A DNA stretch of 64,000 nt from Thermoplasmata archaeon (GTDB lineage: Archaea > Thermoplasmatota > Thermoplasmata > Thermoplasmatales > Thermoplasmataceae), in NCBI GenBank assembly GCA_021797555.1, contig JAJZZM010000013.1, forward strand, positions 124,001-188,000, given 5' to 3'. Made by a program: the position numbers and the translations under genes. The notes beneath the pieces are model-generated. The model had not been told where the DNA came from. It searched no databases and saw nothing but the letters and a program-made list of their open reading frames with translations. Below, in pieces: positions 13,577-15,820 of this stretch; position 1 is the first letter of the stretch, and every line of letters begins with the position of its first letter.

Positions 13577-13659
13577 CGCGGGGAATGGGATTTGAACCCA
13601 TGCTCTCATTTCGAGAAACAGCTTAGCAGGCTGCCGCCGTACCACTGGGCCATCCCCGC
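13577..13659 (-). tRNA. tRNA-Ser (anticodon GCT)
   Basis: Read on the minus strand: acceptor GCGGGGA pairs with TCCCCGC, the anticodon loop CTGCTAAG holds GCT (reading AGC/AGT), there is a long class II variable arm (GTTTCTCGAAATGAGAGC), and the T arm contains GGGTTCAAATCCC. The discriminator is G, as in serine tRNAs. No intron is seen and no CCA is encoded. Confidence 0.96.
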
Positions 13660-13660
13660 A

Positions 13661-13822
13661 TTATGAAGGATATCTATCCTGCAGGTCGTTTGATATTTCT
13701 TCTAATATCTCTTCAAAGCTTTCATTTTCCATATTAACGACCTCACCATTGGGTAATGTCATTCTTACATAATATACTTCCCCATCCTTTGATATCTCTA
13801 TATCAGCTAAACTATCTCCCAT
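13661..13822 (-). CDS. Small acidic protein of 53 residues, unknown
   Basis: An ORF from ATG 13822 to TAA 13661, immediately before tRNA-Ser on the same strand. The product is acidic (many Glu/Asp), has two short beta-strand-like segments (ADIEISKDGEVYYVRMTLP) and then a helical acidic tail (FEEILEEISNDLQDRYP). There is no membrane span and no Cys. The even mix of residues and absence of low complexity suggest a real small folded protein. It may be co-transcribed with the tRNA, since only one base separates them. I do not recognise the family. Confidence 0.6.
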   Translation of the reverse strand: MGDSLADIEISKDGEVYYVRMTLPNGEVVNMENESFEEILEEISNDLQDRYPS

Positions 13823-14311: not shown

Positions 14312-14390
14312 TTAAAATGCATAAATACAATACTATAAATAGAAAAAGTATAAATATTATAAATTACTCTCTATTTCTGGGGGTGTTAAC

Positions 14391-14471
14391 ATGGTCGGTT
14401 TCGTAAAGTTTGGTTATGATGACGATGATGAAGGCGATGACGATGATGACGATGATGATGACGACGAATGA
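14391..14471 (+). CDS. 26-residue poly-aspartate micro-protein
   Basis: ATG 14391 to TGA 14471. It begins MVGFVKFGY, then four Asp, Glu-Gly, ten consecutive Asp and a final Glu. Codons mix GAT and GAC irregularly, so it is not a pure triplet expansion. A strong ribosome binding site (GGGGGTG, 14379-14385) precedes it, and a TATA box (tataaatag, 14334-14342) is placed to start transcription about 25-30 bases downstream. The next gene, a CoA-disulfide reductase-like flavoprotein, starts 35 bases later and may be co-transcribed. The function is unknown; such a tail would bind divalent metals or basic partners. Confidence 0.55.
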   Translation: MVGFVKFGYDDDDEGDDDDDDDDDDE

Positions 14472-14506
14472 GTTAAAAATTATATAGTTAATAAATATTA
14501 TATAAT

Positions 14507-15820
14507 ATGAAAATCGTTGTAATTGGAGGCGGGGCAGCAGGCATGTCAGCGGCCTCTAAAGCCAAAAGAATAGATCAAAGTTCAGATATAACTGTATTTG
14601 AAAAAACAGGTTACGTATCATATGCGGAATGTGGCATTCCATATTATTTATCCAATTATTTTGATGATTATAATAAATTATTGCATTATCCATTAAGTGA
14701 ATTTACGGAAAAAAGGAAAATTAATATATTTTTAAACGCAAATATTGAACATATAAACAATGATGAAAAATATGTATTATACAAAGATAAAAAATATTAC
14801 TATGATAAACTAGTTCTTGCAACAGGTGCAAAGCCAAAAATTCCCGATAATTTTGCCAATAATGTTTATACTATAAGAAATATCGAGGACGCAATTAATG
14901 TAAATAAAAATTTAAAAAAGTCAAAAGACGTTACAATAATTGGTGCTGGTGTACTTGGAACTGAATTATTTTCATTATTAAGCAAAAAATATAATGTAAA
15001 ATTAATATCAAAGCATGAAAGATTATTGCCACATATGGATGATGACATCGGCAATGTTTTAAATAATTTAATTAAAAAATACAACAATAATATAGAATAT
15101 AATTCATTGCCATTAAATATCGATAAAAATAATGATAAATATACAGTTGAAACAACGGAGGGCAAACATAATGCCGATCTGGTTATATTTTCTGCAGGAA
15201 TTTCTCCAGAAAATCAAATGGCTAATGCACTTGGAATAGAAACAAAAAATAATTTAATTAAGGTTAATGATTATATGCAAACTTCAATTGAAAATATATA
15301 CGCAGCCGGTGATAATGTAACATCAAGAAATATTATTACAAATGATTATGATTATTTCCCGCTGGCACAGATAGCTAATAAGATGGGCAGGACAATAGGA
15401 ATAAATTTATATGGCAACACAAGAAAATTCCCCGGTTCTTTGGGAACAACAATAATAAATGTTTTCGGCTATCAGGTTGGCTATACGGGGCTAAATGAAA
15501 AAAAAGCTAAAGAATTGAATTATGATTATGATACGGTATTTGTAAAGGCAAAAAGCAAATCAAACTATTTGAATGGAAATGATGTTTATTTAAAAATTAT
15601 AATAAATAAAAAAAATGACAATATTCTCGGTGCGCAGATCATAGATCAGGATAATGGAGCATGGAGATTAAATTCTATAGCCACTGCCATAAAAGGAAAA
15701 TTAAGTTTATACGATTTATTCTACGATGACCTTGGATATGAACCGGAATATGGTCCCGTATGGGACCCGATAATCATAGGTGCAAGCCTTGGTTTAGATA
15801 AGAGTCAGAGTTACATATGA
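14507..15820 (+). CDS. FAD/NAD(P)-dependent disulfide reductase (CoA-disulfide reductase / NADH oxidase type)
   Basis: A 437-residue flavoprotein. The N-terminal FAD site is VVIGGGAAGMSAASKAK (4-20). The single active-site Cys42 lies in YAECGIPYYL, the hallmark of CoA-disulfide reductases and water-forming NADH oxidases. The NAD site is IIGAGVLGTELFSLL (about 145-160), and the second FAD motif is IYAAGD. The C-terminal dimerisation domain has the Tyr pair region (YEPEYGPVWDP). Likely roles are thiol redox balance or oxygen removal. Its 3' end overlaps the convergent GT2 gene by 27 bp. Confidence 0.88.
   Translation: MKIVVIGGGAAGMSAASKAKRIDQSSDITVFEKTGYVSYAECGIPYYLSNYFDDYNKLLHYPLSEFTEKRKINIFLNANIEHINNDEKYVLYKDKKYYYDKLVLATGAKPKIPDNFANNVYTIRNIEDAINVNKNLKKSKDVTIIGAGVLGTELFSLLSKKYNVKLISKHERLLPHMDDDIGNVLNNLIKKYNNNIEYNSLPLNIDKNNDKYTVETTEGKHNADLVIFSAGISPENQMANALGIETKNNLIKVNDYMQTSIENIYAAGDNVTSRNIITNDYDYFPLAQIANKMGRTIGINLYGNTRKFPGSLGTTIINVFGYQVGYTGLNEKKAKELNYDYDTVFVKAKSKSNYLNGNDVYLKIIINKKNDNILGAQIIDQDNGAWRLNSIATAIKGKLSLYDLFYDDLGYEPEYGPVWDPIIIGASLGLDKSQSYI

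Follow-up and report, generated by a model that had tools for sequence, protein, structure and literature searches.

An ORF at positions 14391 to 14471 of the window (the whole 64-kb stretch of DNA that was analyzed) encodes a polyaspartate microprotein and, as judged by comparison with its relatives, is a protein-coding gene under purifying selection, conserved in two families of the Thermoplasmatales and predicted to be translated. It is the Ferroplasma representative of a microprotein family, whose extracted set comprises 70 members from 69 genomes. Among Thermoplasma, Ferroplasma, Picrophilus, and their relatives, apparently almost no genus lacks the microgene. Its length falls below the lower limit of most gene finders, it is easily taken for a chance reading frame, and none of the searched databases contains a family for it. 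The relevant features of the window are:

14349-14356, plus strand: TATA box of the microgene, TATAAATA, 42 nt 5' of the start codon (from sequence)
14379-14385, plus strand: Shine-Dalgarno (SD) sequence of the microgene, GGGGGTG, 5 nt before the ATG (from sequence)
14391-14471, plus strand: polyaspartate microprotein gene, predicted peptide of 26 aa, MVGFVKFGYDDDDEGDDDDDDDDDDE; orthologs in 69 genomes, purifying selection
14480-14486, plus strand: separate TATA box of the flavoprotein gene, TTATATA, a leaderless-type promoter 27 nt before the ATG (from sequence)
14507-15820, plus strand: CoA-disulfide-reductase-like flavoprotein gene, 437 aa; TIGR03385; Pfam Pyr_redox_2, Pyr_redox, and Pyr_redox_dim

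The 26-codon ORF has the composition given in the preliminary description: a run of ten Asp and a further four, specified by a mixture of nine GAT and five GAC codons. Its peptide is identical in the Ferroplasma acidarmanus Fer1 record. The GGGGGTG sequence and the well-placed TATA box, both noted previously, were found in the sequence and are conserved in relatives, and the reported gap of 35 nt between the microgene stop codon and the flavoprotein ATG at 14507 is correct. In a six-frame scan of the window, the microgene run was the sole run of at least eight acidic residues, and no such run occurred in 40 first-order Markov simulations of the window.

Members of the family were gathered by inspecting the region upstream of the flavoprotein gene, by pattern and profile searches, and by inspecting the region upstream of the Lhr-type helicase gene. 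Of the 19 home-family genera, 18 have the microgene, and the remaining one is represented by a single half-complete genome. Loss or frame-breaking of the ORF in relatives had been proposed as grounds for refutation, and the comparison did not refute it: an ORF of the same kind, with its frame intact, was found 5' of the flavoprotein gene in 10/10 Ferroplasma genomes, as well as in further genera, and the frame is intact in nearly all home-family genera. From the second family of Thermoplasmatales, members were extracted from three of four genera, and presence in the fourth is suggested by unchecked pattern-scan matches. The pattern scan gave no matches in three other families of the order, and a single, unchecked match in one further family. 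Outside the Thermoplasmatales, profile matches were weak and pattern matches resembled chance coding matches; among the matches listed from the pattern scan of the whole collection, those loci that were read encode peptides resembling the family only where they lie in Thermoplasmatales genomes, and the other matches look like chance. Representative predicted peptides (an initial L denotes a TTG start) are MVSFMTRYDDDDDDDGDEDEDDE, MVKFVRFYDDDDDDYDDDDDDDF, LVFKKMDYDDDFDDEDEDEDDDDF, LLSFIKRRDYDDDEDNEDDDDDS, LVNFVKRRDYDDDDDYDDDDDDF, MFVPFWYGDDDDDDDDDDDDGF, and MSIKRRPDDDEDDEDDDDF. One genome (G033) carries the microgene in two copies (L241 and L238), either a duplication or a mixture of strains.

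Across the 70 members, the peptides are 19 to 26 aa long and consist of a short N-terminus, often F-I/V-K-R-R-D-Y, followed by a tract of 9 to 15 Asp/Glu residues that begins at about residue 8 to 11 in most members, i.e., inside the first 30 residues. The N-terminal sequence varies widely (e.g., FVPFWYG, VSLPRLGEY, and SIKRRP), and 38 of the 70 peptides end in Phe. Asp makes up 88% of the acidic residues in the microprotein family, compared with 50% in the genes of the window. Each ORF of 19 to 26 codons is free-standing, without an attached OB or Sm domain. No match to the microprotein was found in NCBIfam, Pfam, or PHROGs, and PDB sequences gave only three chance-level matches with E above 5. 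A search of freely accessible literature found no paper describing this peptide.

An SD sequence of some form precedes 68 of the 70 ORFs, and in 49 it is GGAGGTG or GGGGGTG. A box matching TATAAATA in at least six of eight positions lies at -50 to -32 in 60/70 members, with a median position of -42.5, whereas a control stretch of the same width at -90 to -72 contains such a box in 21/67. Archaeal TATA boxes are located approximately 25 nt upstream of the transcription start, and with the TATA box at about -42 the microgene mRNA is therefore predicted to have a leader of approximately 16 nt, just enough room for the SD. Leaderless mRNAs have been described as widely used in Thermoplasma (PMC7531240), so a microgene with its predicted leader would be unusual. 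The start codons are ATG in 41 members, TTG in 18, GTG in 6, and others in 5. In five orthologs (L271, L318, L258, L269, and L264), no ATG, GTG, or TTG occurs where the start is expected; four have ACG and one GCG at the proper distance from the SD, and these are possibly noncanonical starts.

Evidence for coding came from 28 close pairs of orthologs, in which 120 codon differences are synonymous and 43 nonsynonymous, 17 of the latter being Asp/Glu exchanges. All 10 indels comprise whole codons and keep the frame. The observed synonymous fraction is 0.74, whereas simulations lacking coding constraint gave 0.17 to 0.25. Certain genomes contribute to more than one pair, which makes the counts partly dependent on one another, yet the difference from expectation is large. 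The preliminary description had suggested examining synonymous variation between strains, and had taken the mixing of GAT and GAC to argue for selection on the protein. Selection is borne out by the comparison, whereas the codon mixture within this gene alone is weak evidence (GAC accounts for 5/14 Asp codons, the background frequency being 19%; P = 0.12). The order of GAT and GAC within the tracts is random family-wide (185 identical neighbors observed, 184.5 expected). The real coding evidence is comparative. The random order also led to the rejection of GAT/GAC alternation as selection against slippage. That the ORF is not a gene, and is instead a low-complexity GAY repeat open by chance, is refuted by the comparative data and almost certainly wrong: the tract is indeed of low complexity and its length differs between species, but the SD, TATA box, start region, and stop are conserved in 69 genomes, third positions vary mostly between T and C, and 74% of codon differences are synonymous.

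The gene neighborhood is less constant than the microgene. Most home-family genera have, 80 to 340 nt downstream of the microgene (start to start) and on the same strand, a gene for an Lhr-type helicase of about 900 aa (domains DEAD, Helicase_C, WH_Lhr, and DEAD_assoc); the helicase gene is usually followed by a Toprim gene and then a tRNase Z-like gene. The order in Thermoplasma is microgene, flavoprotein, Lhr, and in one genome (G013) it is microgene, PD-(D/E)XK nuclease, flavoprotein, Lhr, Toprim, tRNase Z. In Ferroplasma and two related genera, which we take to be Picrophilus-like and Acidiplasma-like, the microgene is beside the flavoprotein gene and Lhr is elsewhere in the genome. Three genomes of the second family (L291, L292, and L293) have GNAT acetyltransferase and cytidylyltransferase genes as the next genes after the microgene, within a conserved surrounding gene set; their Lhr gene is codirectional with the microgene and some 15 kb farther downstream. 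Depending on lineage, the gene directly downstream thus encodes Lhr, the CoA-disulfide reductase, the PD-(D/E)XK nuclease, or the GNAT acetyltransferase. There are only about five distinct arrangements, and at every locus examined the next gene is codirectional with the microgene. The simplest reading is an ancestral association with Lhr, with other genes inserted and Lhr sometimes departed. Lhr does not need the microgene, because the three families in which no microgene was detected do have Lhr. The possibility that the microprotein is a detached Lhr tail was rejected, as the Lhr proteins checked in families lacking the microgene have no long acidic tail.

The flavoprotein is a lineage-specific neighbor that lies outside the microprotein unit. 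Its TIGR03385 score is 390.7 bits, against an equivalog cut-off of 578.8; CoA-disulfide reductase is the best-scoring assignment for the product of 14507-15820 but falls far under the cut-off, and its substrate is uncertain. Most of the loci scanned for boxes, including that of the window, have a TATA-like box at -26 to -29 before the flavoprotein gene; the genomes with this box belong to Ferroplasma, the Acidiplasma-like and Picrophilus-like genera, and Thermoplasma. The TATA box at about -27 gives the flavoprotein gene a promoter apart from that of the microgene, although readthrough is possible; the Lhr start codon is uncertain, and so are the Lhr promoters. The distance between the microgene and the flavoprotein gene ranges from 35 to about 400 nt. 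One role proposed in the preliminary description, a leader controlling translation of the flavoprotein, is not supported, in view of this separate leaderless-type promoter, the variable spacing, and the presence of Lhr as the neighbor in most genera, and the turnover of neighbors weakens that reading further.

Because the microgene is kept while the neighboring gene changes, we infer, strongly, that the peptide acts in trans rather than as a cis leader. Neighbor turnover, variable spacing, the separate flavoprotein promoter, and the lack of RNA structure all favor a trans-acting peptide over a cis leader. Microgene loci from five genomes showed no excess of RNA folding (z from -1.6 to +0.8), and an Rfam search gave no match except a tRNA, so an RNA element was rejected. 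With the next gene codirectional at every examined locus, though in only about five distinct arrangements, a cis role is possible but less probable.

Our best guess at the role, held tentatively and with somewhat less than even confidence, is a free-standing tail that mimics nucleic acid. The choice rests on the neighbors that persist longest, which act on DNA or RNA, and on an analogy with Hfq, whose acidic tip is an established mimic of nucleic acid and for which the authors of that work drew parallels with SSB, gyrase, and HMGB1 (PMC5606850). Lacking an attached domain, the microprotein belongs to no acidic-tail family, but perhaps acts like an acidic regulatory tail. The proposed peptide would be disordered and highly negative; its N-terminal anchor, often aromatic and basic, would attach it to a basic partner protein that binds nucleic acid, where the Asp tract, in competition with DNA or RNA, would hasten release or block nonspecific binding. 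The first candidate partners would be the Lhr-type helicase, or the Toprim or tRNase Z proteins whose genes most often adjoin the microgene. Use of Asp over Glu may keep the peptide charged at the cytoplasmic pH of 4.6 to 5.6 (PMC5177888), and this low internal pH may explain the preference for Asp. If the trans-acting mimic is real, acidic tails can exist as separate genes. Several observations count against a mimic: the linkage to Lhr is gone in the Ferroplasma, Picrophilus-like, and Acidiplasma-like genomes, where the microgene survives; Lhr occurs without a detected microgene in three other families; and the wide variation of the N-terminus fits a single conserved docking site poorly.

The main rival is a sensor ORF, whose ribosome-destabilizing translation would abort or run to completion depending on pH or on the level of Mg2+ or polyamines, thereby controlling the downstream gene or mRNA in the manner of MgtL and mgtA. 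In yeast and human systems, translation is aborted by ten consecutive Asp residues placed early in the protein, the more strongly the shorter the preceding peptide (PMC9718836), and the architecture of the microprotein is nearly that of these abortive sequences; how these archaea translate such a peptide and why they keep it is directly testable. Acidic residues within the first 30 aa of MgtL and EttA have the same effect in E. coli (PMC11282234). Both the next gene, codirectional at every examined locus, and the frequency of non-ATG starts suit a sensor, but the downstream gene is not fixed across lineages, the spacing varies, the CoA-disulfide-reductase-like gene has its own leaderless-type promoter, and there is no stable RNA fold. 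Moreover, destabilization alone leaves the conserved N-terminal residues, the bias to Asp over Glu, and the frequent terminal Phe unexplained, and on balance we consider the sensor unlikely. Combining the two ideas, a core, lineage-wide trans regulator of nucleic-acid enzymes in the form of a detached mimic tail, or else a conserved ORF whose ribosome-destabilizing translation senses cytoplasmic ions or pH in acidophilic archaea, is a formulation that we would still put at rather under an even chance.

Asp tracts bind divalent and trivalent cations, and a role in sequestering Fe, Mn, Ca, Mg, or polyamines, or in protecting cells in acid mine water against metal stress, would suit the metal-rich acid that is the habitat of Ferroplasma and its relatives, where Asp at low pH holds its charge better than Glu. 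Such cation binding or buffering is nonetheless improbable: the peptide has no Cys, His, or patterned ligands, the annotated loci link it to nucleic-acid enzymes rather than metal transport, and the conserved N-terminal Phe and basic patch would be superfluous in a peptide that did nothing but chelate. We regard as very unlikely a role as chaperone of basic chromatin, for example of the HU-like HTa, as acidic histone chaperones do. Binding of a polyaspartate peptide to a basic protein of chromatin would be expected, and HTa has been described as a histone analog that organizes Thermoplasmatales DNA (PMC6877293). An HU-family gene, however, was found in 114 of the 117 genomes of the order, among them genomes of families that lack the microgene. 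The two genes thus show no specific co-occurrence, and co-occurrence was rejected as an argument for an HTa chaperone. HU/HTa-like genes are often present in two copies in the families lacking the microgene.

Among known systems, the C-terminal domain of E. coli Hfq and the C-terminal tail of SSB are short, disordered, acid-rich peptides, as the microprotein, which often ends in Phe, would be. They differ in being parts of larger nucleic-acid-binding proteins, whereas the microprotein is the product of a separate gene, 19 to 26 aa long, with a longer tract of almost pure Asp. MgtL-type leaders resemble the microgene in having an acidic run in the first 30 residues and in being very short ORFs that precede another gene. 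Unlike them, the microgene has its own promoter, with a separate promoter on the CoA-disulfide-reductase-like gene, and neither a constant downstream gene across species nor a conserved RNA fold was found. Dss1/Sem1 of eukaryotes is a small, very acidic protein with scattered aromatic residues that has been proposed as a DNA mimic; it is about three times longer than the microprotein. Elsewhere in the window, a 53-aa ORF without a family match (13661-13822, minus strand) shares its strand with a tRNA gene (13577-13659) and lies immediately upstream of it.
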